A stretch of 52,681 nucleotides of DNA from positions 1-52,681 of IMG/VR virus record IMGVR_UViG_3300030060_001275. The stretch is one strand, 5' to 3'. Made by a program: the position numbers and the translations under genes. The notes under the pieces are model-generated. The model was not told where the DNA came from and did no database searches. It saw only the letters and a program-made list of their open reading frames with translations. Each line of letters begins with the position of its first letter. The first letter of the stretch is position 1. This document shows, piece after piece, positions 1 to 26,471 of the stretch. The DNA is from a virus.

Positions 1-510
1 GCAACCAATCGTATGCTGTCTAGCATCATTGAACTGGCCTTCATAGTTCAGAGTTAAGTCGGAATCTGACCCGTCAAAAGCCGTTATTTGTGTTCCATTG
101 ACATAAAGCTTTGTTCTATCAGCGGCAGTCGATTGAGTAGAGTCAAACTGCCAGACAATATTCGACCACGCCGCTGTATCTCTGAACAACGTGTTACCTG
201 TTCTCGCAATGACTTGGGTGCCACTATTATAATTTTGGAAGGCTATTTCATCATTTAGGAATTCTAGACCACCAAAGTTATTGAAGTCAGTATGACCAGC
301 AGAGAACAAATACATTTCGCCACTAGAATCGAGATTGCCTCTTTTTACCCAACAGCTAAATGTAAAGGTTTTGCGGTTTCCTGCACTCGATGGAGTAAAA
401 GATAAAAACGCTGAATCATCATCGTTCAGACGTAAAGAATTTTCTATTTCAAATCCATAAAAACCGCCAGAGGCGTACATCCATTGTGATGATCCGAATG
501 GGCCAGACAT
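1..510 (-). CDS. LamG-like tail fibre / receptor-binding protein (N-terminal part, cut by window edge)
   Basis: Open frame from the ATG at 508-510 to the window edge (170 codons, no stop). It begins MSGPFGSSQW and contains a stretch like KTFTFSCWVKRGNL followed by a FYGFEIENSLRLND-type strand pattern. This resembles the LamG/concanavalin-like jelly-roll repeats of marine phage tail proteins, which bind carbohydrate or display a receptor-binding surface. The start overlaps the stop of the upstream tail gene (TAATG), so translation is probably coupled. The LamG fold is incomplete at the edge; the usual later strand (DGYLAEV-type) is not seen. The assignment is by pattern only, and the exact receptor role is inferred. 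Confidence 0.7.
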   Translation of the reverse strand, partial: MSGPFGSSQWMYASGGFYGFEIENSLRLNDDDSAFLSFTPSSAGNRKTFTFSCWVKRGNLDSSGEMYLFSAGHTDFNNFGGLEFLNDEIAFQNYNSGTQVIARTGNTLFRDTAAWSNIVWQFDSTQSTAADRTKLYVNGTQITAFDGSDSDLTLNYEGQFNDARQHTIGC

Positions 511-3044
511 TAACTAAACGCCAATTGTGGAGCACCCAAAAGGATGCGGTTAGAAGCCGCTACAACATAAGGTATGATGTCTGTAGCACTTGCGGTACTA
601 GACAATGTGATTCCTGCACCTCCCGCAGTCTCATAATCTGTTCCTAAACTTAGTGTTCTACCGCCCGTGCCGTCTTGTATGCAGACAATGAAGCCGCTTT
701 GACCTACCGTTTCAGTAGATGGGTTAGCCAATGTGACGTTACCTGTCAGTGTTAGTACAAAGTTTTGATTAGCAGAAAAGTCTAATGTGACACTACCTGT
801 GTTTGATGTATCTGTGTCTGTTTTAGCTGTTGCTACAGCACCGACAGTTAAGCCACCTGCTATTGTTACATTAGTTGTGCCTGTCGGTATTTCAATAACA
901 TCTGCGTCAGCATCGTTCTTGATGGTTACATCATTAGTTGAACCCTGCCCTGTCAGAATTAAACCTTCTGCTGCTGTGAAGCCCATAGCTGCATTATCAC
1001 CAGCAGAGGTATCTCCAGTGGCCTCCACAGTGCCGCCAGTAATAACACCTGTAGTAGTTATGGCACTAGCACCATTATCTATAGCACCAAAACCACTTGT
1101 AATAGAACCTGAATCTAGAGCACCTGTTGTAACAATACTTGAACTACCAGCAGCCGCTGATGCCCCGATATCTGATAATACCTCTGATGCAGATCTACTT
1201 TCTAATCCATTAGCAGTAAATCTAGCAAACTCATCATCAGCTACTGAACTGCTATCTATTTTTACAGCGTTAGTGTTAGATATACCAAATGTTAAACTAG
1301 CTTGTCCTCCTATATCGGACAGCACTTCTGATGCAGAACGTCCTTCAACAGATGTTCCTGCAATCCTTAAAAAATCATCATCAGCTACACCACTTGTAAA
1401 AATTGGGATATTAGTATCTGAGATACCAAATGTTAGTGCGGCTTGCCCCCCAATATCAGACAAAACTTCTGAAGCAGATCTGCCTTCAATTGCTGTACCG
1501 TCAATTCGTAAGAAATCATTGTCTGCCGCACCTGACGTAAAGGTTGCAACATTGCCACTGGATATTCCAGAGGAGGGTATATCCGATGTTAAAGCAACTG
1601 TTCCTGCTGACGAGGGTAATGTTACTGTGACATCCGCAGTGGATGCAGGTCCAATCAATGTAACAGCGTTAGTTCCATTATCAGTGTCTTCTTTAAATAA
1701 TATAGAGCCTGCCGCTGAAGATGAACCAGACAACGTAGGGGCAGTTAACGTCTTGTTAGTTAATGTTTGTGAACCAGTAAGTGTTGCTACCGTAGAATCA
1801 ATGGCAACAGTCAGAGTATTCCCTGATCCAGAAGTATCAATACCAGTGCCACCAGCGATATCAAGAGTTTCAGAGTCCAAGTCGATTGAAAGTGCTCCAC
1901 CAGAATCTCCTTGAAAGTCTAAGTCTGACCCTGTTAATTGTGCGTCAACATAAGCCTTAACTGCTTTAGCAGAAGCTAATGTATCATCAGAACCAGATAC
2001 AGAACTTAAATCCGTATCTAAAACACCAGACTTTAAGTTATCAACTTCAATATTAGATACAGTATTATTATCTACATCTATTGTTTTATTAGTCAATGTA
2101 TCAGTGGTTGCTTTACCTACAAGAGTGTCTGTAGCGGCAGGTAAAGTAATTGTAACATCCGCTGTAGACGCTGGTCCGATAAGCGTAGCACTATTAGTAC
2201 CATTATCAGTGTCTTCTTTAAACAGTATTGAACCTGCTGAAGAAGATGATCCAGATAATACAGGAGCAGTTAATGTTTTATTAGTTAATGTTTGCGAACC
2301 AGTTAAGGTTGCAACAGTAGAATCTATCGCTACACTAAGCGTATTACTTGAGCCACTGGTATCAATCCCAGTTCCCCCTGCAATAGTAAGGGATTCTGAG
2401 TCAAGATCAATACTAAGTGCTCCTCCGCTGTCCCCCTGAAAGTCAAGATCTTGTGCCGTAACCTGCGAATCAACATACGTTTTAATTGCTTTTGCTGATG
2501 CAAGGGTATCGTCTGAACCGGATACAGAGGATATGTCCGTGTCGATAGATGTAATTGCTGTACCGGATGTAACAGTGAGGCTGGTAGTAGTAACTGCCGC
2601 CGCTGAAGACCCCCCGATAACTGCCCCGTCGATAGTGCCGCCATTAATATCAGCAGTATCAGCAACCAGACTATCAATGTTTGCTGTACCGTCAATGTGC
2701 AAATCTTTAAATTCTGCACCCGTTGCCCCCAAGTCTACGTCATTGTCTGTTACAGGAACAATCGCACCATCTTGAAAACGCACTTGTTCTACAGAAGAAG
2801 AACTTACGTCTACAAAAACTCCGATACGATTGTTGCTATCACTAACAACAACTTTATTTAGAGGTGTTACTACTCCCGGATCACCGATAAGACCAATTAC
2901 TGGTCCTTCTGCCGTTGTTCCGTCATGCTTATGTCCACCAGTATTGCTAAATACGTTGAGTATCTGATCAAACTCATTATTAGAATCAGCCGCATCAATT
3001 ACATCACCGTCTGTGTATGAACTTTGTCTAGTGTACCCAGCCAT
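510..3044 (-). CDS. Repeat-rich tail fibre-like structural protein (844 aa)
   Basis: Ser/Thr/Gly/Asp-rich fibrous protein with almost no Cys. The N-terminal ~45 residues (MAGYTRQSSYTDGDVIDAAD..., then GGHKHDGTTAEG) look like a virion-attachment head. The middle holds two 175-residue repeats containing LTGSQTLTNKTLTAP and GSILFKEDTDNGTN motifs. Three ~47-48-residue repeats with RSASEVLSDIG follow, then a beta-rich end. This layout is typical of marine podovirus and cyanophage tail fibres. It is flanked by the LamG protein downstream and the stabilisation protein upstream (2-nt gap), so it belongs to the tail/adhesion part of the late operon. Function is inferred from composition and position. 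Confidence 0.75.
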   Translation of the reverse strand: MAGYTRQSSYTDGDVIDAADSNNEFDQILNVFSNTGGHKHDGTTAEGPVIGLIGDPGVVTPLNKVVVSDSNNRIGVFVDVSSSSVEQVRFQDGAIVPVTDNDVDLGATGAEFKDLHIDGTANIDSLVADTADINGGTIDGAVIGGSSAAAVTTTSLTVTSGTAITSIDTDISSVSGSDDTLASAKAIKTYVDSQVTAQDLDFQGDSGGALSIDLDSESLTIAGGTGIDTSGSSNTLSVAIDSTVATLTGSQTLTNKTLTAPVLSGSSSSAGSILFKEDTDNGTNSATLIGPASTADVTITLPAATDTLVGKATTDTLTNKTIDVDNNTVSNIEVDNLKSGVLDTDLSSVSGSDDTLASAKAVKAYVDAQLTGSDLDFQGDSGGALSIDLDSETLDIAGGTGIDTSGSGNTLTVAIDSTVATLTGSQTLTNKTLTAPTLSGSSSAAGSILFKEDTDNGTNAVTLIGPASTADVTVTLPSSAGTVALTSDIPSSGISSGNVATFTSGAADNDFLRIDGTAIEGRSASEVLSDIGGQAALTFGISDTNIPIFTSGVADDDFLRIAGTSVEGRSASEVLSDIGGQASLTFGISNTNAVKIDSSSVADDEFARFTANGLESRSASEVLSDIGASAAAGSSSIVTTGALDSGSITSGFGAIDNGASAITTTGVITGGTVEATGDTSAGDNAAMGFTAAEGLILTGQGSTNDVTIKNDADADVIEIPTGTTNVTIAGGLTVGAVATAKTDTDTSNTGSVTLDFSANQNFVLTLTGNVTLANPSTETVGQSGFIVCIQDGTGGRTLSLGTDYETAGGAGITLSSTASATDIIPYVVAASNRILLGAPQLAFS
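1160..1590 (-). repeat. Three ~141-144-nt repeats encoding SASEVLSDIG modules
   Basis: The sequence for SEVLSDIG recurs at about 1168, 1312 and 1453, a period of 144 and 141 nt. Each unit encodes about 47-48 residues (LTFGIS..N..., DDFLRI, EGRSASEVLSDIG). They are protein-level fibre repeats; the units abut with no spacers, so this is not a CRISPR. Confidence 0.75.
1617..2537 (-). repeat. Tandem ~525-nt duplication inside the tail fibre gene
   Basis: Segments near 1617-2012 and 2142-2537 align at a constant offset of 525 nt (175 codons) and differ mostly by synonymous changes. Both encode SSVSGSDDTLASAKA, DLDFQGDSGGALSIDLDSE, LTGSQTLTNKTLTAP and GPASTADVT blocks. It looks like an in-frame internal duplication that lengthened the fibre. 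Confidence 0.8.
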
Positions 3045-3045
3045 G

Positions 3046-4761
3046 TTATCGCCTTGCTCCTACTCCGAACTCCAATTGGAATCCTTTTAGTGAATATGGT
3101 GCTGATGCCGCTGTATCATTTATGCGTAGCGCAACAGCAAAACCTGAACCTTCTACAGATTGCCTTAATAATGGTGTTCTTTGACCACCATACGTTCCTG
3201 TACTACCGTATGTACTTACTCCATACAGTGCAAGAACATCAGAAGCGTTTAAAATATATGCAGCAGGATTAGTTGAATCAGGAGATTCATAATCATATCT
3301 TAAAAATAAACTAGCATTAATAGCCGCTTCAGGTGCATAGTTTATAATTATTCGATGCATATCTTTGCGTATACCCGCATCTCCCATAGTTAAATCTGGA
3401 GAACGGTATCTGCCATTAATAGCTGTACCATCAAATGTGTTACCACTCTCTTGCAAAAACACATAGCCGTCAAAGCCACCATGCAATACAGTTTCTGGTT
3501 GTCTTTCATTATCGTAATCTGTACAAGCAGGTTTAATGCCTTTTAATTCAGAAAATACAAAACCCTGTTGTGTTAAGCTAGCTATTATTCCTAAAGTATT
3601 AGCTACTGAATCTGTTTCGTTTACAAAAAATATTCTATATTGTGTTTTGGTAGGGACTACAACAGACTCAATTTGATCAAATGAAGTAAGTCCATCAAAC
3701 TTTACTTGAACAGGTTTTGAAATTGTTCCTAATTCAACATCTCCAATTTTATCCGTACCTGCAATAGTACGCAATCCATCAGGAGCTAGAAATATAATAT
3801 CTCCTCCTAATTCCTGAACACTGTGTTTAGCAGAACAACCTAGATCACGAGTAACTGGTTGTAATACAAAGTCGCTTAATGTATTTCCTGTAATTTTAAA
3901 TATTTTTTCTCTTCCAAAGACGTACAACTGATCTCTGAAAGTCTTTAATGCTACGACTGTATCATCAACACTGATACTACCTCCCCCATTACCAGAGGAA
4001 AAATCATTTTCTGAGAAAGGCGCACTAAAAAATACTTGGTTAGGACTAGCACTATGCCCAGATAAAAATACATGATTTTTAAATATTTCAACAATAGATG
4101 GAGCAGAGGGTGCATCTGAATGTGTAATGTCTGTTACAGAAGAACCATTATAAAAACTTGCTCTATTAACACCATCAACAAAAATTAATTTACTTGTGCC
4201 TGCAAAATTATATCTTTTGAAAGAAAACTTACCTGCATTTGTTCTACCCGAATCTATAGAAGTCCAAGTTTGTGATACAACAGCATCATCAGAATGAGAA
4301 GCGGCACTAGTATTATTAACTCCTCTGGTGCAACCAGTAAACGTAGTGCTTGTAGTACCTGTATAAGTTATCTGTTCTGTGCCAATTAAAAGTGTTCCAG
4401 TAGAAGTAAATCCAGTAGTTGAGTCTACAGTTATAGTAGTTACAGAATCATTGATTGCACCATTTAACTGATCTGTTTGATTTGTAGAGCGAAATACAGA
4501 TTCGCCTCTTGCCGCTATAACTTCAGTTGATCCATAACTTGCCGCCATTAACACTGGCTCAGATGCAGAGGCTGTTTGAGGAACTACACTACTATTCCAT
4601 TTACTAAATCCGTTTATCCTCCGATATCCTCCATTAATATCAGATTCAAAATTTATTAATTCAAGAGCCATGCCCGGTTCTAAAGTAAAAGCAGATCTGT
4701 TAAGAACAAGACCACCAGAGCAGGAAAACTGTAACGGTTGTACGCCAGACTGATCTGCCAT
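3046..4761 (-). CDS. Tail stabilisation-type structural protein (571 aa)
   Basis: Begins MADQSGVQPLQFSCSGGLVLNRSAFTLEPGM and continues ALELINFESDINGGYRRINGF. This opening is typical of phage proteins that build the tail hub or plug and are often annotated as P22 gp10-like stabilisation proteins. The remainder is beta-rich (ITVDSTTGFTSTGTLLIGTEQITYTG, then a propeller-like region with KTFRDQLYVFGREKIFKITG). It sits between the tail-tube-like protein and the fibre with gaps of 1-2 nt. Virion location is likely. The P22 gp10 analogy is inferred from family resemblance and gene order. Confidence 0.65.
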   Translation of the reverse strand: MADQSGVQPLQFSCSGGLVLNRSAFTLEPGMALELINFESDINGGYRRINGFSKWNSSVVPQTASASEPVLMAASYGSTEVIAARGESVFRSTNQTDQLNGAINDSVTTITVDSTTGFTSTGTLLIGTEQITYTGTTSTTFTGCTRGVNNTSAASHSDDAVVSQTWTSIDSGRTNAGKFSFKRYNFAGTSKLIFVDGVNRASFYNGSSVTDITHSDAPSAPSIVEIFKNHVFLSGHSASPNQVFFSAPFSENDFSSGNGGGSISVDDTVVALKTFRDQLYVFGREKIFKITGNTLSDFVLQPVTRDLGCSAKHSVQELGGDIIFLAPDGLRTIAGTDKIGDVELGTISKPVQVKFDGLTSFDQIESVVVPTKTQYRIFFVNETDSVANTLGIIASLTQQGFVFSELKGIKPACTDYDNERQPETVLHGGFDGYVFLQESGNTFDGTAINGRYRSPDLTMGDAGIRKDMHRIIINYAPEAAINASLFLRYDYESPDSTNPAAYILNASDVLALYGVSTYGSTGTYGGQRTPLLRQSVEGSGFAVALRINDTAASAPYSLKGFQLEFGVGARR

Positions 4762-4762
4762 G

Positions 4763-5482
4763 TTAGGTCACCGTTGAATTTATAAATGAAAATCTGTTAT
4801 TTCTAGGAATATATGTAGAACGAACATAATCATGTCTGTTACCTAACACACCCAGCATATTTTTAATACCTTCATCAAAACGATCTAAACTTAATTGATA
4901 CTGCGTAGTTTCACCACGAAACTGATAACCATACATGACAGCACCATCAGCTATAACATGCCTAAATCTTTCTGGTATAGAAGGCACATCCCCGTGTGCA
5001 GATAAATCAGCAGGAAATGTATAAAAATCAAATTTTATTTTATAGGTATCATCTGGATATGGATACAAACCATATTTATTAGCAGGATCTCTAAATACAT
5101 GAGTAGGCTTGCCACCCACATCAGAAGTATCCTCTTGATCACTATATTTTTCAATGTATTCTTTATAATCTATAAAAGTAAGTTTTCTTCCCGTTGCTCC
5201 CTTAGATGTATCAGGAACTAGTCTAAAGGTATTATAATCTATTAATTTAGTGCTAGTGGGTAGTGCATATCTTGTTTGATTAGCAACAAGTGTAATTTCA
5301 GCCTCTGAATGATTAAAAGGCCAAGCATACTCTCGTTGATTAATATTTCTGATAGCAGAGTTTACTGCATTTTTGCATTGTGTTTGAAACCCACGAGAAG
5401 AAGCAAAGTTAGCAGAAGTTAAAGGAACTTCATTAAATCTTGCTAGCACTTCATTTGTAACATCTAAATATGTATATGCCAT
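4763..5482 (-). CDS. Tail tubular protein A-like head-tail adaptor (239 aa)
   Basis: MAYTYLDVTNEVLARFNEVPL, then a helical segment (CKNAVNSAIRNINQREYAWPFNHSE) and a beta-rich half (RHVIADGAVMYGYQFRGE...). The pattern fits podovirus tail-tube/adaptor proteins (T7 gp11 or P22 gp4 class), which form a ring under the portal. It directly precedes the stabilisation protein and follows the capsid/decoration genes, the expected order. It lies just after a UUCG-type terminator hairpin, so it may be expressed at a lower level than capsid. Confidence 0.6.
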   Translation of the reverse strand: MAYTYLDVTNEVLARFNEVPLTSANFASSRGFQTQCKNAVNSAIRNINQREYAWPFNHSEAEITLVANQTRYALPTSTKLIDYNTFRLVPDTSKGATGRKLTFIDYKEYIEKYSDQEDTSDVGGKPTHVFRDPANKYGLYPYPDDTYKIKFDFYTFPADLSAHGDVPSIPERFRHVIADGAVMYGYQFRGETTQYQLSLDRFDEGIKNMLGVLGNRHDYVRSTYIPRNNRFSFINSTVT

Positions 5483-19573: not shown

Positions 19574-19975
19574 TGTATGTTTCTTATAACCTGTAGGGCA
19601 TTTATAAATGAAAGGGCATTTAGAGTGGTTTACAAGCCATTTTTACGAATTTTGGCAGTGTGTGTACATATATACGCAGTACGGGGGGGTGGCCCACGCC
19701 TGCCCCACGAAAAAAAAATGATCGTATGCGCTGGCCTGAGAAAAAATAAAAGATAAGTTATTGATTTATAAAGAAAAAATAATATATGCAAGTGTTATAT
19801 AGTCACTTGATACTATTTATAGCTTGCACGATTGGCGGAAAATAAAAATTGATCGCGCTGTTTTTGGTTGTGGATATTTTACTACATCTATTCAATTACT
19901 ATGCACACTATACCCTAAACAAGTTGGCACGGTTATTGCTACGCGCGCGTTCCTTATTACGCGAAAAAAAAAGCA

Positions 19976-19997
19976 TGCGTAAAAATTTTTTACACAT
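19976..19997 (+). promoter_or_regulatory. 22-bp palindromic element, copy 1
   Basis: TGCGT-A5-T6-ACACAT. An extra half-site TTACGC lies just upstream (19957-19962). It is ~100 nt before the 275-aa gene. One of eight copies in 20.0-26.5 kb. Confidence 0.75.
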
Positions 19998-20098
19998 AAC
20001 ACTAATTAAAGATAGAGGGTTGACGGTCGAACAAATGATATGTTAAGCTTCTATACATGGTGCTATTTCGTACTTTTACTAAATGAAGGTGAATAATT

Positions 20099-20926
20099 AT
20101 GAATACTCAAATATCAAACATTGCTCTCGACTACACTATTAATCCTGAAAAATTTGCGGACCGTTTTCTTGGTTCTCGAAGAACTACCGATGATTTCGGG
20201 CAAGTTGTTGGCAATGTTTCAGAAACAGAAACAATATCTGAGTTTGATACTGCTGATATTAAAGATGGGCAAAAAAATATTCCGCCTGCTCGCAAACCCA
20301 AAGGTAAATCTAAGCGCGCTGGAATGGGTAAAAAAGTTAATCTTGAACAGTTATTAGCCGCGCCAGTATCGCGCACGAGTGAGCAGACCGTTGAGGAATT
20401 AGCAGAAGAAATAAAGACAATACACGCGCAAATGCTCAAAGGCCAATACGAACAGATAAAGGCTTTCTCTGAAATGGGGATGCGATTCAACAAAATTCGT
20501 AAAGCTGTAATGATTGAAAAGGACTTTGATGACCCTAAAAAGGCGGATTCCGAATTCGGAAAAAAATTGACTCTTTTAGGAATTGGCGTTAATTTTATCG
20601 ACCGGACAACTCGGCGCTCTTATGTCGCGCTAGCCGGTAAACTTACTCAGGCGAAATCCTTTGTAACCAAAGCCGTCAATGCATACGCGAAAGATCCCAA
20701 AGGCGCGGATAAAATCACCAAAAAAATAGCAACTAATTATGCTAGGCTGACATTGACTGCGCCAGTTGTAGTCAAAGAAATGGGTCTCTTAGGTTCGACC
20801 GAAGCCAAACCTAAGGCTGATACGCTCGCGAAAATTGTCGAGAATGTGCAGAATCGCGTTGAAAAGCTCGAAGATGTTTCAATTGCTCAAGTAATCGAAG
20901 CACTACAAAAAATTAACCAAGTCTAA
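20099..20926 (+). CDS. First rightward early gene, DUF3102-like? (275 aa)
   Basis: Charged, mostly helical protein. A basic linker (ARKPKGKSKRAGMGKKVN, residues ~63-80) is followed by a helical domain (EEIKTIHAQMLKGQYEQIKA, FGKKLTLLGIGVNFIDRTTRR-type). This vaguely recalls DUF3102/ParB-like DNA-associated proteins. The C-terminus is a coiled coil. The gene uses noticeably more CG-containing codons (many GCG, CGC) than its AT-rich neighbours, suggesting separate origin. It is closed by its own terminator. As the first early gene it is a candidate regulator, possibly of the 22-bp element. This is inference only. Confidence 0.6.
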   Translation: MNTQISNIALDYTINPEKFADRFLGSRRTTDDFGQVVGNVSETETISEFDTADIKDGQKNIPPARKPKGKSKRAGMGKKVNLEQLLAAPVSRTSEQTVEELAEEIKTIHAQMLKGQYEQIKAFSEMGMRFNKIRKAVMIEKDFDDPKKADSEFGKKLTLLGIGVNFIDRTTRRSYVALAGKLTQAKSFVTKAVNAYAKDPKGADKITKKIATNYARLTLTAPVVVKEMGLLGSTEAKPKADTLAKIVENVQNRVEKLEDVSIAQVIEALQKINQV

Positions 20927-20944
20927 TATTTAGCACTGAATTAA

Positions 20945-20972
20945 AACCTTATCTTATGGTAGGGTTTTTTTT
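20945..20972 (+). terminator. Intrinsic terminator after the 275-aa gene
   Basis: AACCTTA (20945-20951), 8-nt loop, TAGGGTT (20960-20966), then a run of T to 20972. Isolates the first early gene from the following cassette. Confidence 0.75.
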
Positions 20973-21012
20973 CGTCTGGATTTTTTTATTTATATTTTTT
21001 TTATGATAGTAC

Positions 21013-21036
21013 GTGCCTGAGTGCCTGAGTGCCTGA
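21013..21036 (+). repeat. Three tandem copies of GTGCCTGA
   Basis: The 8-mer GTGCCTGA occurs three times head to tail directly upstream of the second palindrome copy. It could be replication slippage or an iteron-like site. Confidence 0.6.
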
Positions 21037-21050
21037 GCACAAAATTGTAA

Positions 21051-21072
21051 TGCGTAAAAATTTTTTACACAT
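21051..21072 (+). promoter_or_regulatory. 22-bp palindromic element, copy 2
   Basis: Identical to copy 1. Its end touches AGGAG, the SD of the 80-aa membrane protein. Confidence 0.75.
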
Positions 21073-21084
21073 AGGAGTATAAAA

Positions 21085-21327
21085 ATGTGGAATTTTAATT
21101 TAGTAAATCTTCTCTTAAAAGTATTATTTGGTTTTTTTGTAATACTAGGAGCTTTTGTTTTTTGTGTTGGTTTAATACTTCTTGTCGAAAATGTATATGT
21201 TTCTGGCTGGGATTTATTATTTCAATGCGCTGTACCTTTTATAGGTGCGGTTTTTGGTGTTAGTTGTGGCTGGGTATTCTTGCAAATTAGAGTATGGGAA
21301 TATATTTTAGTGTCACTTGACAAGTAA
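21085..21327 (+). CDS. Small membrane protein (80 aa)
   Basis: Two hydrophobic segments: VLFGFFVILGAFVFCVGLIL (residues ~13-32) and a second around CAVPFIGAVFGVSCGWVFL. No enzymatic motif. SD AGGAG lies 7 nt before the ATG, directly after palindrome copy 2. Probably an inner-membrane protein made early in infection; superinfection control is one possibility but untested. Confidence 0.6.
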   Translation: MWNFNLVNLLLKVLFGFFVILGAFVFCVGLILLVENVYVSGWDLLFQCAVPFIGAVFGVSCGWVFLQIRVWEYILVSLDK

Positions 21328-21384
21328 TCAATAGTATGAGACAATAGTTGCATGGTTGGGAAGTGTCTTTTTATTTTCTAGCCA

Positions 21385-21406
21385 TGCGTAAAAATTTTTT
21401 ACACAT
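21385..21406 (+). promoter_or_regulatory. 22-bp palindromic element, copy 3
   Basis: Identical to copies 1 and 2. GGAG follows at once and serves the 123-aa gene. Confidence 0.75.
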
Positions 21407-21419
21407 TGGAGAAATGAAC

Positions 21420-21791
21420 ATGACTGATTTTTATGTAACAACACAATGCTTAGAGAACTATGGCTCACATTGTCATTCGGGCAAGTTTTCTGATGATTCG
21501 CATTGTTGGAAGTTTAAAACTGGCACTGACTACATCGTGTCCGGTCTGTATAAGCACCAAGATGCTATGGCATTCGTTGCATCTATCTGTATGTACAACG
21601 GTATCGGTTGGAAAGAATTTCCTTCTGAGTGCATCACGGTGTGTGAGTGGAACGCTAAATGGGACATGGATAACCCCAATGATGTGGAGTACCGTGACTT
21701 CAAGTTGAAATATGTGGAACGTGTTGACCCTCGCACTTTTGATAGGGCATTGCATGAACGCAAAATGAACGTGACTCTGGGTGAGTTTTAG
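21420..21791 (+). CDS. Cys/His-rich hypothetical protein (123 aa)
   Basis: The start is placed at the ATG at 21420 because GGAG (21408-21411) is then 8 nt upstream; upstream codons derive from the palindrome. YVTTQCLENYGSHCHSGKFS, DDSHCWKF and a later CITVCEW give clustered Cys and His that could bind a metal. It resembles small phage proteins of unknown role with a TTQxxENYG opening. Confidence 0.6.
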   Translation: MTDFYVTTQCLENYGSHCHSGKFSDDSHCWKFKTGTDYIVSGLYKHQDAMAFVASICMYNGIGWKEFPSECITVCEWNAKWDMDNPNDVEYRDFKLKYVERVDPRTFDRALHERKMNVTLGEF

Positions 21792-21798
21792 TGTCAAA

Positions 21799-21820
21799 AG
21801 CGTAAAAATTTTTTACACAT
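21799..21820 (+). promoter_or_regulatory. 22-bp palindromic element, copy 4
   Basis: AGCGT-A5-T6-ACACAT, one change in the first base. Lies 7 nt before GGAG of the next gene. Confidence 0.7.
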
Positions 21821-21838
21821 CAAATGGAGATGTTAAGT

Positions 21839-22579
21839 ATGAAATTACCAAAAAAAGTTACTGGCGTGGTGTTCTATGAAGGCGCGTCTATGCTCAATGG
21901 TGAGCGTATTGTAGGCATAATGTTGTTCTCATCTAGCAATGAAAAGACGGGTAACATGGCACAGATTATGTATCTAGTCGTGGATGAGTCACCTGTGGAT
22001 GCGATCAAGTCGGGTGCTGATGAAGCTATATGTGGTAAGTGTGTGCATCGTGGTACATCGTGCTATGTGACAGTGTTTCAGTCTCCGCTGTCTGTGTGGA
22101 AGTCGTATCACAAAGGTAATTATCCTGTGGTATCCGTAGCTGAGTGTTGCGAGTTGATCCAGCAACGTGGTCTAGAAGTTAGGTTTGGCACGTATGGAGA
22201 TCCTGCCGCTATACCTACAGATATCACACTGGCTCAGGCTAGAGTGGCTGTGAAGATTACTGGTTACACGCATCAGTGGATGCACAAGAAATTTGATCCG
22301 GCTTTACTTGATGTGTGCATGGCTTCTGTGGATAACAAGAAACAGATAAAGCACTTACAGCGTAAAGCTAAACGTGCTGATGCTAGGTATTATCGTGTCA
22401 CCACTGATATATCAGATATTGATGTGGGGGAGATTGCCTGTCCACATTATGACACTGGCATACAATGCAAGGCGTGTGGCTTGTGTGATGGCGCACGTAG
22501 GAATTCAGCATCTATTGTGGTGCAGGTACACGGTTCATCTGCCAAGATCAACAGCTTTAATTTAATTGCGGTAGCGTAA
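21839..22579 (+). CDS. Cys-rich conserved phage protein, DUF7227-like (246 aa)
   Basis: Start chosen at the ATG at 21839 (MKLPKKVTGVVFYEGASMLN), 8 nt after GGAG. It has the pattern of a family common in phages and plasmids: TGVVFYEG, SSNEKTGNMAQIM, SGADEAICGKCVHRG, CYVTVFQSPLSVW, then YHKGNYPVV. A second Cys group, CPHYDTGIQCKACGLCDGAR, is near the C-terminus. The Cys clusters suggest metal binding. No biochemical role is known to me. Confidence 0.65.
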   Translation: MKLPKKVTGVVFYEGASMLNGERIVGIMLFSSSNEKTGNMAQIMYLVVDESPVDAIKSGADEAICGKCVHRGTSCYVTVFQSPLSVWKSYHKGNYPVVSVAECCELIQQRGLEVRFGTYGDPAAIPTDITLAQARVAVKITGYTHQWMHKKFDPALLDVCMASVDNKKQIKHLQRKAKRADARYYRVTTDISDIDVGEIACPHYDTGIQCKACGLCDGARRNSASIVVQVHGSSAKINSFNLIAVA

Positions 22580-22584
22580 CAGGA

Positions 22585-22606
22585 TGCGTAAAAACTTTTT
22601 ACACAT
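22585..22606 (+). promoter_or_regulatory. 22-bp palindromic element, copy 5
   Basis: TGCGT-A5-C-T5-ACACAT. The changed base is the central one, leaving both arms intact. Precedes the SD of the 64-aa gene. Confidence 0.75.
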
Positions 22607-22629
22607 TAATAAATATGAGGAGAGTAAAA

Positions 22630-22824
22630 ATGAGTAAGATTTATACTTTAAGAGATACATTTGATGGTAGTCTTGTGAAATGGACATTGCCTGAGATACT
22701 TGAATATATAAACAGCGGCAGGTCTGACGAATGGGAGGACTATGATGAAGGGGATTGGGAAGAAGGACTAGAGGTTTGGACCGAGTATGAGTTAGTGTCA
22801 CTTGACAATAAGTCAATAGTGTGA
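22630..22824 (+). CDS. Acidic small protein (64 aa)
   Basis: MSKIYTLRDTFDGSLVKWTL, then DEWEDYDEGDWEEGLEVWTE: a very acidic, Trp-containing protein. GAGGAG is 6-11 nt before the chosen ATG at 22630. The 3' end carries a 17-nt sequence shared with the end of the 80-aa gene. An anti-host DNA-mimic role is conceivable from the charge alone, but unsupported. Confidence 0.55.
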   Translation: MSKIYTLRDTFDGSLVKWTLPEILEYINSGRSDEWEDYDEGDWEEGLEVWTEYELVSLDNKSIV

Positions 22825-22830
22825 AATACT
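22802..22830 (+). promoter_or_regulatory. Weak promoter-like pair before the 22.87-kb terminator
   Basis: TTGACA (22802-22807), 17-bp spacer, AATACT (22825-22830). It is followed 36 nt later by a terminator, so any transcript from it would be short. Confidence 0.3.
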
Positions 22831-22866
22831 ATGCACACTGATAGGAGGTAACAAGTTCCCTCGTTG

Positions 22867-22889
22867 CCCCACTTCGGTGGGGTTTTTTT
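22867..22889 (+). terminator. Intrinsic terminator with UUCG loop
   Basis: CCCCAC-TTCG-GTGGGG followed by seven T. Nearly the same hairpin as the one before nrdB. Confidence 0.9.
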
Positions 22890-22913
22890 ATAGTCAAGAG
22901 AAAGAGAGAAACC

Positions 22914-23156
22914 ATGAAAAACGAAACAATTTTTATTAATGCAATCGAAGGTGCGAAAGTCGCCGTTTTCAAAGGTGCCGGTAATATGATTGGTACTGCA
23001 AAGACTGCTGAGATGTTAAACTACATCCTTGATACTCACAAGATTTACGGTGAAGTGATGTTCTGTAGCACTATGGATTTTGCAGATGAAGTTGGTTTCG
23101 CAACCCATGACGGTGCGAAAAAGATTTGGGATGCCGCCATGGCAATGAGAGGTTAA
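22914..23156 (+). CDS. Hypothetical protein (80 aa)
   Basis: MKNETIFINAIEGAKVAVFK, then GNMIGTAKTAEMLNYILDTH: a small alpha/beta protein without membrane segment or catalytic motif. It is the first gene after the terminator at 22.87 kb, so readthrough or an unseen promoter must serve it. No family recognised. Confidence 0.6.
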   Translation: MKNETIFINAIEGAKVAVFKGAGNMIGTAKTAEMLNYILDTHKIYGEVMFCSTMDFADEVGFATHDGAKKIWDAAMAMRG

Positions 23157-23159
23157 TAA

Positions 23160-23181
23160 TGCGTAAAAATTATTTACACAG
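23160..23181 (+). promoter_or_regulatory. 22-bp palindromic element, copy 6
   Basis: TGCGT-A5-TTA-TTT-ACACA; the change is in the core. GGAG of the 39-aa gene follows within one base. Confidence 0.7.
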
Positions 23182-23190
23182 GAGAGTAAA

Positions 23191-23310
23191 ATGAAAATTA
23201 TTGATTGGATTATTATTTATACTGAAGGTGACGCAGTCGCACGGATGACACCAGTGTACGATATGCAAGATTGGCTTGCATTAACTTATGCGGAGAAAAT
23301 GTATGTATGA
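23191..23310 (+). CDS. Tiny hypothetical protein (39 aa)
   Basis: MKIIDWIIIYTEGDAVARMT, then PVYDMQDWLALTYAEKMYV. GGAG lies 8 nt before the ATG, right after palindrome copy 6. The stop overlaps the start of the next gene by 8 nt, so the two are probably co-translated. No family recognised. Confidence 0.5.
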   Translation: MKIIDWIIIYTEGDAVARMTPVYDMQDWLALTYAEKMYV

Positions 23311-23662
23311 AGTTTATCAGCTACCGTTTGAGGTGGCATCGCGTTTGATGGAGGAGAGATCTACAAGTCCGTTCATGTATCGTGGGTTGCAGTATTCTGA
23401 CTCACCCTACGAGTACACCAAGCAACTTGCACAGCAGTTGTTTGAGAAGAATGGGTATCGTGCAGTTGCTCGCTTCAATGTGAACTCACTGGACGGTGTC
23501 TTTGCTGCATCGGGTATGGGGGATGAGTCAGTGACTGAACGTCTAGCTAAGATGCACACAGTGAGCGTGGGTGACATCATCCGTGACATGGAGTCGGATG
23601 ATTACTTTATTGTGAATCCAATGGGGTTTGATTTCATGGGCAAGTTAAGGAGAGTAGTGTGA
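23303..23662 (+). CDS. Hypothetical phage protein (119 aa)
   Basis: Start set at the ATG at 23303, 7 nt after GGAG. MYEVYQLPFEVASRLMEERS, YRAVARFNVNSLDGVFAASG and SVGDIIRDMESDDYFIVNPM form a small alpha/beta protein that looks like phage early hypothetical proteins. No motif supports a function. Confidence 0.55.
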   Translation: MYEVYQLPFEVASRLMEERSTSPFMYRGLQYSDSPYEYTKQLAQQLFEKNGYRAVARFNVNSLDGVFAASGMGDESVTERLAKMHTVSVGDIIRDMESDDYFIVNPMGFDFMGKLRRVV

Positions 23663-23705
23663 GTGACCATTCGGCAAGTTATTTTCATTAGAGGAGGCAT
23701 AAAAG

Positions 23706-23804
23706 ATATTTTATATAGCATTTTTATTAGGAGTGCTTATACTGTGTCACTTAGTATTTGCAACATTAAATTTTATAATTAACTGGATGCGTAAAAATTT
23801 TTAA
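23706..23804 (+). pseudogene. Possible membrane peptide with ATA in place of a start codon (32 codons)
   Basis: AGGAGG at 23693-23698 is a strong SD, but no ATG follows at proper spacing; an ATA opens the frame 8 nt later. The frame encodes a hydrophobic helix (IFYIAFLLGVLILCHLVFAT) and ends inside palindrome copy 7. Either a decayed start codon or chance. Confidence 0.25.
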
Positions 23805-23809
23805 CGCAT
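23788..23809 (+). promoter_or_regulatory. 22-bp palindromic element, copy 7 (diverged)
   Basis: TGCGT-A5-T5-AACGCAT. Here the right arm is ACGCA, which makes the outer arms a perfect palindrome. It lies 36 nt before the tRNA gene rather than a protein gene. Confidence 0.65.
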
Positions 23810-23845
23810 GTTGGTCTAGGATTTTCTTAGATCATACCTTAATAC

Positions 23846-23919
23846 CTTGGGGGAGCCAGACGGTCAGGCGGTGGTCTGCAAAACCACAGAAACGGGTTCG
23901 ACTCCCGTCCCCAAGTCCA
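23846..23919 (+). tRNA. tRNA-Cys (anticodon GCA)
   Basis: The cloverleaf folds by eye: acceptor CTTGGGG/CCCCAAG, 3-bp D stem GCC/GGC, anticodon stem GTGGT/ACCAC with loop CTGCAAA (anticodon GCA), and T arm ACGGG-TTCGACT-CCCGT. Discriminator T and an encoded CCA end at 23919. Position 8 is G rather than the usual T. It could supplement Cys decoding of the Cys-rich early proteins nearby, or serve as an attachment-site remnant. Confidence 0.9.
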
Positions 23920-23938
23920 AATTAAAAGGAAATAAATT

Positions 23939-24094
23939 ATGTTTAACAATATGATTTTGCATATGATGACAGACTTTGAAACAGTGCCATACTATTCTGT
24001 CATGGCTTTCACAGGCTGGGTGCTTGTATCTTTCTGGATTACAGTATCCATTTTAGTTTATTTAAATTTAAAGATGGAGGTTAAAGATGACTAA
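23939..24094 (+). CDS. Small single-pass membrane protein (51 aa)
   Basis: MFNNMILHMMTDFETVPYYS, then a transmembrane helix (VMAFTGWVLVSFWITVSILV) and a short polar end. AAAGGA precedes the ATG. It follows the tRNA directly and overlaps the next gene by 8 nt. Function unknown. Confidence 0.5.
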   Translation: MFNNMILHMMTDFETVPYYSVMAFTGWVLVSFWITVSILVYLNLKMEVKDD

Positions 24095-24284
24095 ATTAAA
24101 AAAAGGCTTGCAACGGCAGGAATTAATAGAAGCGTTAATAAAGTTTGCAGAACAAACAGGCAATGCTTGGTATGAGTGGAATGATGCTTCAGGTGATGTT
24201 GAATTATGCGTCGTTTTTACAGTCCCAGCCGAGGATGGTCAGGTGATTCTTGACTTCAGAGGAGAAGGAGAATACAGACGATGA
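24087..24284 (+). CDS. Hypothetical protein (65 aa)
   Basis: MTKLKKGLQRQELIEALIKF, then WYEWNDASGDVELCVVFTVP: one helix followed by a beta-sheet. GGAGG lies upstream. ATGA overlap with the next gene indicates coupling. No family recognised. Confidence 0.55.
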   Translation: MTKLKKGLQRQELIEALIKFAEQTGNAWYEWNDASGDVELCVVFTVPAEDGQVILDFRGEGEYRR

Positions 24285-24484
24285 ACAAATTTGATGATCA
24301 GGATTCAAGGATTTTACTGCAAAAATATGAAGATAAGATGACTGAAGATGAGAAAACTCTTTGTTCTTTAGTGTCGATTGCTTTTGTTAGTAACGAACGC
24401 ATGGACAAAGAGGATGTTGAGTCTTGGCGATTCTTGCAAGGTAAGTTAAACGAATGGCATGATGATGGAATTGGTTTGCCTTGA
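24281..24484 (+). CDS. Acidic helical protein (67 aa)
   Basis: MNKFDDQDSRILLQKYEDKM, then SIAFVSNERMDKEDVESWRF. Acidic and helical, overlapping the previous stop by 4 nt with AGGAGAAGG upstream. Its stop codon is part of the -35 hexamer of the next promoter. Confidence 0.55.
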   Translation: MNKFDDQDSRILLQKYEDKMTEDEKTLCSLVSIAFVSNERMDKEDVESWRFLQGKLNEWHDDGIGLP

Positions 24485-24509
24485 CATTTGTTTTCTTAAA
24501 TATTAAAAT
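24481..24509 (+). promoter_or_regulatory. Promoter for the DUF932-like gene
   Basis: TTGACA (24481-24486), 17-bp spacer, TAAAAT (24504-24509), 41 nt before the ATG at 24550. Confidence 0.6.
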
Positions 24510-24549
24510 TTTAAACACAAAATTATCAGTTGCTATAGGAGCAAACAAA

Positions 24550-25419
24550 ATGAAATACGAAAACTTTGATGGTCTTCCTGCGTTACCTATTGATCTGGAT
24601 TTTAATCCTGTTCGTGAGACTGTATATCGTAATGGTGTGCGAGTCCCAGACCAGTATTGGATTGTTAATCCACATACCGATCAACTCATCAATGATAAAC
24701 CATCTGGTAAGAACCATCATCCAGTGAACTATACTCGCATGTGGGATGCGTTTTGTGAGGGTGTGAGTGCGTCAGGTATTGACACTAATAACCTACAGGT
24801 AAAGTTCAACATAGCGCACAATGGTTCGGCATTTTCTGCTGACATTGTATTTAAAAATTATGACTTTAAAAGGATTATAGGTGAGGCTACGCAGATGAAA
24901 ATGCGTATTGTTGACTCACACGACATGACGTTTAGGCGTGACATTCGTTGCACGATTATGCGACTAGCTTGCACTAATGGTATGTCCAATGTCGGTGAGA
25001 ATCTCACGATCAGGCAGAAACATACAATGCTATCTGATCCTGAGAAACTTGGTGCTGTCGTTGCTGAGTATCCATCTCGTCTAGAGAATGAAGCGGAACT
25101 TTATGAAAGGATGATAAAAACTCCTGTTACTAAGGATCAAGCTATCGCATTTGCTAGGTCTGAAGTTGCTACATATCGTGTGGCTTCTGGTATCAAAGTA
25201 AATGAGAAGTCAGTCGAGGAGTTTGCTAGGATCTGGAATGACTACGCAGGACTTGGTAATACTGGCTATCGTTTATATAACGTGCTAACTCACATCGGTA
25301 CACACGTTACTGGTAGAAAGGGTACAGACATGGCTCGTAAGCAGATACGCATTGAGGATAAGGTAGCTGACATAGTGCAGGGTAATACCTTTCAATCATT
25401 AGTAGGATTAGCGGCATAA
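24550..25419 (+). CDS. DUF932-like protein (289 aa)
   Basis: The start is the ATG at 24550 with AGGAG 7-8 nt upstream; the longer frame has no proper start. Characteristic blocks are CTIMRLACTNGMSNVGENLT, a middle helical region (EAELYERMIKTPVTKDQAIA) and NTGYRLYNVLTHIGTHVTGR. These match DUF932-type proteins of phages and plasmids, which are found near DNA-metabolism or anti-restriction genes but have no defined activity. Confidence 0.65.
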   Translation: MKYENFDGLPALPIDLDFNPVRETVYRNGVRVPDQYWIVNPHTDQLINDKPSGKNHHPVNYTRMWDAFCEGVSASGIDTNNLQVKFNIAHNGSAFSADIVFKNYDFKRIIGEATQMKMRIVDSHDMTFRRDIRCTIMRLACTNGMSNVGENLTIRQKHTMLSDPEKLGAVVAEYPSRLENEAELYERMIKTPVTKDQAIAFARSEVATYRVASGIKVNEKSVEEFARIWNDYAGLGNTGYRLYNVLTHIGTHVTGRKGTDMARKQIRIEDKVADIVQGNTFQSLVGLAA

Positions 25420-25510
25420 GCCGCTTTTCTATTGGAGTGAGGTATAGGTGAGTGGGTACTGATAACCTTTAGCTACATTAACTTTTTAACAACAATAGAG
25501 GAAATATATT

Positions 25511-25792
25511 ATGAAAAGAGTAGACATACTGAAAATGCAACTACTGAATAGTAGAGGACGTTTTTTCACTGCTGAGTGGAAAGGTTTGGTTGGTGAGATG
25601 ATTAAAGCTAATTTTAAAGTTATAAAAATTATCGATGTATCATCTAAGCGTATTCGTGCCACAGTTTATATTCCTAAACTTAGCAAAAACATAAACCTAA
25701 ATTTTATGATTAACTTACATGGTGACTGCACTTATATTGCTAGTGACAAGTCAAAGTTTGAAATGTCTGGCAAACAAGCATTCAACTTTTGA
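25511..25792 (+). CDS. Basic hypothetical protein (93 aa)
   Basis: MKRVDILKMQLLNSRGRFFT, then FKVIKIIDVSSKRIRATVYI: a basic alpha/beta protein. AGAGGAA precedes the ATG. The pattern MQLLNSRGRFFTAEW is seen in early genes of other phages, but the function is unknown. Confidence 0.55.
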   Translation: MKRVDILKMQLLNSRGRFFTAEWKGLVGEMIKANFKVIKIIDVSSKRIRATVYIPKLSKNINLNFMINLHGDCTYIASDKSKFEMSGKQAFNF

Positions 25793-25815
25793 GAAGACCG
25801 AACAGGAGATAGCAC

Positions 25816-25983
25816 ATGAGTAATTTCATTGTAGTTAAAATTTTGTGGGGTGTAGATAAAAATCCGTCTAAATATTCATTCAAAACTCAGGCAGAAGCGG
25901 ATGCGTTTATGCGTGGTGTTGAGGAATCAAATGGTTGGTTAGATTATGAGGTAGAAGATGAAGAGGAGGTAATTGACTTATGA
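25816..25983 (+). CDS. Small acidic protein (55 aa)
   Basis: MSNFIVVKILWGVDKNPSKY, then TQAEADAFMRGVEESNGWLD, ending EVEDEEEVIDL. AGGAG lies upstream at good spacing, and the stop overlaps the next ATG (ATGA). The opening resembles small phage proteins that carry an xFxTxAEADAF helix. Function unknown. Confidence 0.55.
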   Translation: MSNFIVVKILWGVDKNPSKYSFKTQAEADAFMRGVEESNGWLDYEVEDEEEVIDL

Positions 25984-26213
25984 AAATTATGACAAGTGAA
26001 GGTGAATTTGTTTTTCCCATAGATGAACTGCGTGAAAAAGGTGGGTTCAAGCCCATGAACAATGAGCGCGGTTACGCATGGTTTGGGGGCAAATCGCATC
26101 GCGCTTTTGCAGATTTATCCCAAGTAAGCCCCGATGACGTTGAAGATTTCGAGGACTTGGAATTTCTTGTAATCGGATATGCAAACAACAATAAGGAGGT
26201 AAATGATGGCTAA
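25980..26213 (+). CDS. Hypothetical protein (77 aa)
   Basis: MKIMTSEGEFVFPIDELREK, then YAWFGGKSHRAFADLSQVSP and acidic DDVEDFEDLEF. GGAGG upstream. Translationally coupled on both sides. Unrecognised family. Confidence 0.55.
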   Translation: MKIMTSEGEFVFPIDELREKGGFKPMNNERGYAWFGGKSHRAFADLSQVSPDDVEDFEDLEFLVIGYANNNKEVNDG

Positions 26214-26394
26214 GTATCAGGAATATAAGGTTTTCAAGACATGGGATGTCACGGAAATCTACACGGTTCGCGCTGAGTCTATCGAACAGGCAATTCGATT
26301 CGTAGAGGATGGCGAGGACTCTGATGACGCAAATGTCTACACCGTGAGTAAAAGCGAGTATGAAGATAATTTCGAAGTCGGAAAGTCGGGTTAG
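26206..26394 (+). CDS. Hypothetical protein (62 aa)
   Basis: MAKYQEYKVFKTWDVTEIYT, then VRAESIEQAIRFVEDGEDSD: a beta-beta-alpha pattern typical of small phage proteins. The second of two adjacent ATGs was chosen because it lies 6 nt after GGAGG. Its 3' end enters a long inverted repeat. Confidence 0.55.
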   Translation: MAKYQEYKVFKTWDVTEIYTVRAESIEQAIRFVEDGEDSDDANVYTVSKSEYEDNFEVGKSG

Positions 26395-26444
26395 TCACCT
26401 GCCACAGCGCATCGATTCGGTGCGTTGTATCGGTGTGTGACTAA
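26391..26444 (+). promoter_or_regulatory. Long two-part hairpin
   Basis: Outer arms TTAGTCAC (26391-26398) and GTGACTAA (26437-26444) pair perfectly. Inside, ACAGCGCATC pairs with GGTGCGTTGT around a short loop. There is no T-tract, so it is a structured RNA element or DNA cruciform rather than a plain terminator. It ends 6 nt before palindrome copy 8. Confidence 0.55.
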
Positions 26445-26449
26445 GAGAA

Positions 26450-26471
26450 TGCGTAAAAATATTTTACACAT
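26450..26471 (+). promoter_or_regulatory. 22-bp palindromic element, copy 8
   Basis: TGCGT-A5-TATTTT-ACACAT, a core change only. It lies 23 nt before the ATG at 26495 and is the last copy; none is seen among the replication genes. Confidence 0.75.

Follow-up and report, generated by a model that had tools for sequence, protein, structure and literature searches.

Dispersed palindromes before early genes of an HMO-2011-type phage are probable operators of a phage-encoded DNA-binding protein

The early region of virus record IMGVR_UViG_3300030060_001275, whose 52,681 bases form the whole stretch of DNA analysed here (the window), contains eight near-identical copies of a short palindrome, TGCGTAAAAATTTTTTACACA. 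This raises the question of what recognizes the site, and whether it is recognized as DNA or as RNA. To judge from its genes, the window phage is of the HMO-2011 type. These phages are described as dominant and broadly distributed in the ocean; the chief comparative study of the group says nothing of palindromes or promoters, and integrase is the sole lysogeny-related gene that it names (PMC9038755). Their hallmark, a family A DNA polymerase with a partial DnaJ central domain, is present in the window: exonuclease, partial DnaJ and family A domains are combined in one protein (PF01612, PF00684 and PF00476, the PF00684 match lying below its curated cut-off) that is 62% identical to the polymerase of Puniceispirillum phage HMO-2011. 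A nucleotide search of the window against annotated phages gave no match. Minus-strand genes lie on the left, whereas early and replication genes occupy the plus strand from 20099. Here we argue that the palindromes are probably operators for a dimeric DNA-binding protein of the phage, which is most likely encoded by the first early gene, g1.

The eight copies, all on the plus strand between 19976 and 26470, have zero to two mismatches each (Table 1), and nothing in the rest of the record comes closer than six mismatches, counted over the 23-mer. On both strands together 13 matches to TGCGTAAAAATTTTTTACACA were found within three mismatches, compared with 0.01 in dinucleotide shuffles; the number exceeds eight because the word almost equals its own reverse complement. 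A preliminary description of this DNA had placed a 22-bp palindrome at 19976, 21051, 21385, 21799, 22585, 23160, 23788 and 26450, always in plus orientation and only in the early block. Coordinates, orientation and confinement are all correct, but the symmetry extends over 21 bp around a single central T, or over 23 bp when the outer A and T of most copies are included. It also held that substitutions fall in the core or restore arm symmetry, which is true in the main: changes are mostly central (copies 5, 6 and 8), but copy 4 is altered at the first arm base, and copy 7 gains outer symmetry (ACGCA) at the loss of one inner pair. The placement it described was likewise recovered. Copies 2-6 and 8 precede protein genes with a Shine-Dalgarno (SD) sequence, the first lies some 100 nt before its gene and copy 7 before a tRNA. 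An SD plus start codon within 45 nt follows six of eight copies, as against 27% of region positions (binomial p = 0.006), and the SD of the following gene lies outside the conserved palindrome word. A small leader peptide encoded by in-frame copies (ATG CGT AAA AAT TTT TTA CAC) was considered and rejected, since copy 4 lacks the ATG and copy 7 contains a stop.

Related HMO-2011-type phages share the layout but not the word, their palindromes being phage-specific. An exact scan of IMG/VR for the window's word returned 24 stretches, and the one that was opened (L008) has unrelated genes. Relatives of the window were sought by means of a DUF932-like protein encoded at 24550-25416. The window's word (TGCGTAAAAA) does not occur in the relatives thus found, and a repeat search identified their own palindromes in the same region. 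L038 has eight copies of GYGTAGGATTTTCCTACRC, several of which stand directly before SDs, and two copies in tandem lie ahead of the first early gene. In L032-L034 the palindrome is TGACGAAACTTCGTCA, two of the four copies being inside genes, and in CRP-1, CRP-345 and L127 it is GTCCAANNTTGGAC. L094, a contig that starts too late to show g1, has seven TGTCAACGGTTGACA palindromes (29-5077), some placed precisely in the gap that separates a stop codon from an SD or start. A context scan of HMO-2011 detected three TAGTCCGACAGCGGACTA-like sites (59, 1260 and 1925), all of them followed by an SD. A palindrome-family scan yielded sets of at least three in CRP-345, CRP-1, L127 and L094 and two TAGTCCGACAGCGGACTA-like copies in HMO-2011; the same scan of Markov-shuffled control sequence gave mostly families of one or two, and once of four.

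Palindrome-bearing phages have in common that their first early gene encodes a protein of 190-275 aa with a shared core, g1. A search with five g1 proteins identified 123 IMG/VR stretches, and the analysis covered the 80 best. These contain 358 copies of GTCCRANNTYGGAC, the palindrome of the GTCC clade, against none in shuffles; the word is present in 80 of 80 loci, 74 of which have at least two copies. At least one copy per locus is partly built in, as one site usually lies inside g1, but this does not apply to copies ahead of g1 or of later genes. Typical locations are some 200-300 bp before g1, where the palindrome is often reversed, within g1 itself, and in front of later genes. Where copies lie away from g1, 139 of 185 precede an SD plus start within 45 nt (background 26%), with a core-to-SD spacing that is usually 8-10 nt. 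Among nine cultured phages, HMO-2011, CRP-1 and CRP-345 have both g1 and palindromes. In the other six (CRP-2, CRP-603, CRP-207, HTVC033P, CRP-235 and CRP-738) neither a g1 match nor, over the whole record, a GTCC word was found, and the 15-20 kb read of each showed no convincing palindrome family.

Protein and word also appear to change together. Outside HMO-2011, GTCCGA replaces GTCCAA in both arms and in every copy counted in L141, L147, L150, L167 and L193. Position 113 of g1 is occupied by Thr in the 76 GTCCAA loci without exception and by Ser in each of these five GTCCGA loci (Fisher p = 2e-7, uncorrected for kinship); HMO-2011 also has a G at that base and a different residue at the 113 position. 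On a tree built without the region there are five word changes and four residue changes, and of five independent pairs four show the residue changing in the same direction, which gives four separate matched changes. Residue 117 (Lys) accompanies the word change in most cases. Replacement of Thr by Ser together with loss of a thymine methyl would suit reading of DNA from the major groove. N136D co-varies with the word as well; since it is the codon of the operator copy inside g1, it was not counted as evidence of binding. That Asn to Asp is forced by this operator shows that the palindrome is maintained at the expense of protein sequence.

The g1 protein of L137 was modelled by AlphaFold2 as all-helical (pLDDT 82.5), with helices 69-75, 82-93, 95-104 and 112-125 and a C-terminal helical hairpin. 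The model has helix-turn-helix-like segments, and residue 113 stands at the start of helix 112-125. The model of the window g1 is weaker (pLDDT 72.0) and also all-helical. Fold searches of the PDB with both models gave nothing significant, and in a viral library the sole significant hit was S4S2E1 (205 aa, E = 1.5e-5), which may be HMO-2011 gp74, judged by protein length. When the 82 open reading frames (ORFs) of the window and L038 were ranked against the GTCC-clade g1 profile, the g1 of L038 and that of the window came first and second, and the alignment of these two gave a profile-profile probability of 87-91% against GTCC-clade g1. An initial assignment of g1 to DUF3102 found no Pfam support and was dropped.

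On this basis a mechanism can be proposed in which we infer direct binding, dimerisation and repression rather than activation. The g1 protein would bind the site before its own gene, and in relatives also inside it, resulting in autoregulation. It would further bind the gaps before many other early genes, between a promoter or upstream gene and the ribosome binding site, and when bound would lower early transcription by blocking either initiation or the passage of RNA polymerase. Placement of the sites between promoter (or upstream gene) and ribosome binding site fits repression or a roadblock better than activation. Such a regulator may or may not serve lysogeny: CRP-3 can integrate and some members have an integrase (PMC9038755), but CRP-2, CRP-603 and CRP-207 carry integrase genes and have no g1 match, and the bacterial genomes scanned for g1 contained none. 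The preliminary description had suggested a shared early promoter or operator. The operator half is supported by the phage-specific words, which change in concert across copies and in step with one early protein. The promoter half is not, as promoter-like sequences are separate from the element in the window, and in relatives the element either follows a -10-like sequence or sits in a gap with no evident promoter.

The same description also offered RNA processing or translation control. According to this alternative the palindrome is a 5' leader hairpin for an RNA-binding protein or nuclease, of phage or host, that controls translation, mRNA stability or processing. It would agree with the position of most copies, which immediately precede ribosome binding sites, with the likely transcript 5' end that lies close by in several relatives, with the folding of the relatives' words as short hairpins of -4 to -10 kcal/mol, and with paired changes that preserve arm complementarity. 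However, among 289 relatives' copies with at most two departures, the stems show 32 mismatches, three G-U and 22 paired changes; since RNA palindromes should tolerate G-U, this scarcity favours DNA. The window hairpins are weak at -2 to -5 kcal/mol and are lost in three of six folded leaders, and the arms of seven of eight window copies, read as RNA, contain a C.A mismatch. In front of a tRNA, copy 7 could not control translation, and relatives have copies inside g1 and 200-300 nt before g1, the latter often in opposite orientation. The concerted change of word with Thr to Ser suits DNA too. Taken together these features appear to favour DNA sites, and an RNA element seems unlikely.

Were the sites DNA operators of another protein, a different phage gene product or a host regulator with g1 merely linked, this would accord with other early genes of unknown function that also carry copies, and with the link to g1 in the window, which consists of position and distant homology. 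Yet cultured relatives have either both g1 and the palindromes or neither, changes of the word are accompanied by changes at one g1 residue on four separate lineages, and a host regulator hardly explains different words in related phages, so that we consider this explanation very improbable. A further possibility is that g1 is ParB- or KorB-like and serves partition or DNA organisation, the palindromes being dispersed parS-like sites and any effect on transcription secondary. In KorB/OB and ParB/parS systems a helical DNA-binding protein has many dispersed palindromes on one replicon, and dispersed palindromes read by a helical, helix-turn-helix-like protein are reminiscent of plasmid RK2 with its KorB operators and of phage N15, whose centromeres are likewise dispersed. 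Some HMO-2011-type members have an integrase gene, suggesting a prophage stage (PMC9038755). In contrast to those systems, g1 has no ParB-family match (Pfam, PHROG), no ParA-like partner occurs among the genes scanned, which covered part of the neighbours, and the sites track ribosome binding sites and early genes. Moreover, a scan of 84,980 bacterial and archaeal genomes found no g1 relative and no prophage. We consider partition likewise very improbable.

Several points weigh against g1 operators all the same. A sign test on the matched changes gives p = 0.125, the independent pairs being too few to reach 0.05, and the association of residue 113 was observed in the GTCC clade, outside the window's own lineage. 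Counts of loci include near-duplicate contigs. As g1 matches no Pfam family, no solved (PDB) fold and no convincing PHROG, its helix-turn-helix is read from predicted helices alone. A plain hidden Markov model of the GTCC clade misses the window g1 (E = 1.1), which is found by profile-profile comparison alone; in the window the proposed link to g1, through position and distant homology, is weaker than in relatives. The operator reading is wholly computational, and sequence does not settle whether g1 would repress or activate.

Table 1. Palindromes, g1 and other mapped features of the early region of the window
Feature	Position	Strand	Details
Palindrome copy 1, ATGCGTAAAAATTTTTTACACAT	19975..19997	+	0 mismatches; divergent intergenic region, ~100 nt before g1
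g1	20099..20926	+	First early gene, 275 aa; candidate DNA-binding regulator
Terminator-like hairpin	20943..20968	+	Directly after g1
Palindrome copy 2	21050..21072	+	0 mismatches; followed by AGGAG and ATG at 21085
Sigma-70-like promoter, TTGACA-17-GACAAT	21317..21345	+	10/12 consensus bases; ~40 nt before palindrome copy 3
Palindrome copy 3	21384..21406	+	0 mismatches; followed by TGGAG and ATG at 21414/21420; promoter-like site ~40 nt upstream
Palindrome copy 4	21798..21820	+	1 mismatch (first arm base); before gene starting 21839
Palindrome copy 5	22584..22606	+	1 mismatch (central base); before gene starting 22630
Second promoter-like stretch, TTGACA-17-AATACT	22802..22830	+	
Intrinsic-terminator-like hairpin	22866..22883	+	Followed by T run
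Palindrome copy 6	23159..23181	+	2 mismatches over 23 nt; abuts GGAG; before 39-aa ORF starting 23191
Palindrome copy 7	23787..23809	+	2 mismatches; outer arms symmetric (ACGCA); 37 nt before tRNA-Cys
tRNA-Cys (GCA)	23846..23919	+	ARAGORN, Rfam; follows palindrome copy 7
Palindrome copy 8	26449..26471	+	1 mismatch (central base); before gene starting 26495

Other elements were noted in these early regions. A 49-nt promoter-like stretch occurs twice in the window (21298-21346 and 22783-22831, 78% identical), the second copy being followed by a terminator-like hairpin; chance matches to the sigma-70-like pattern are common. None of the palindrome copies is among the listed terminator-like sites of the window (G+C-rich stem plus T-tract), and Rfam found nothing in the window besides the tRNA. 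A motif like TTTAGTGAAAGT...TATANT, possibly an early promoter, precedes some palindromes of relatives (HMO-2011/L046 1260, L121 2417 and L212 8149). L043, which belongs to another phage group, has a different repeat, TCTCGCAGGCTCGAGGTTTTA, in four copies (2277, 3215, 4019 and 10972), mostly shortly before start codons. In the GTCC clade an element of ~77 nt is conserved between the upstream operator and g1 (L137 5799-5872; HMO-2011, L134 3963-4036). It occurs in HMO-2011, CRP-1, CRP-345 and many IMG/VR loci, and was not found in the window, L032-L034 or L038. With 12 predicted pairs, five of which show compensatory double changes in 28 aligned rows, and no Rfam match, it is a candidate new structured RNA. 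Furthermore, a long hairpin stands directly before the g1 SD, ~20-100 nt before g1, in L137, L142, L147 and others, in some cases with a promoter-like TTGACA upstream.

Two described systems come close. Stoperators of cluster A mycobacteriophages such as L5 and Bxb1 are many short repressor sites, mostly in one orientation to transcription, with a phage-specific consensus that tracks each phage's repressor (PMC6550527); a second report describes them as asymmetric and bound by a repressor monomer (PMC9283540). The ESAS of cluster K phages are imperfect inverted repeats, located just upstream of the ribosome binding site in numerous non-structural genes and varying in consensus from phage to phage; they have 17-bp arms and a variable spacer and lie beside a 13-bp SAS that contains the SD, and their binding partner is unknown (PMC3203893). 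Like L5 stoperators, the palindromes recur in short gaps close to start and stop codons. Eight of eight window copies share one orientation; the relatives' copy before g1 is often reversed. Unlike stoperators the palindromes are near-perfect dyads of 14-21 bp, and g1 looks unrelated to known families, having no Pfam, PHROG or PDB relationship in searches that did not include a direct comparison with the L5 repressor Gp71. With ESAS they share the inverted repeat before the ribosome binding site and the phage-specific consensus, but here the palindrome of 14-21 bp is the whole site and a partner gene is proposed; in contrast to SAS (13 bp, with AGGAG adjoining the start codon), the palindrome word does not include the SD. 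PeSL cassettes of T4-type phages are small regulatory modules repeated between early genes and composed of a promoter and a terminator-like stem-loop, whereas the palindromes have no T-tract and promoters are separate. We thus read g1 and its palindromes as a putative auto-regulated repressor with dispersed, L5 stoperator-like operators. The system would work like L5 stoperators and look like cluster K ESAS, the defining features of neither being present in full.

Tentatively, g1 (HMO-2011 gp74, CRP-1 gp01, CRP-345 gp01) may represent an undescribed family of phage DNA-binding regulators that uses symmetric operators as transcription roadblocks in early operons, with a fast-shifting specificity and one word per lineage. 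If true, related phages with different words could form separate regulatory or immunity groups. The likeness to cluster K ESAS suggests what those sites may be. The matched changes in protein and site provide a natural series for studying shifts in DNA specificity, among them a Thr/Ser replacement linked to a single base pair. Knowledge of a regulator and its operators would help to approach early-gene timing and the possible prophage life of HMO-2011-type phages. Together, an unknown early protein and its palindromes suggest that a phage group which is among the commonest in the ocean possesses a gene switch not described so far.

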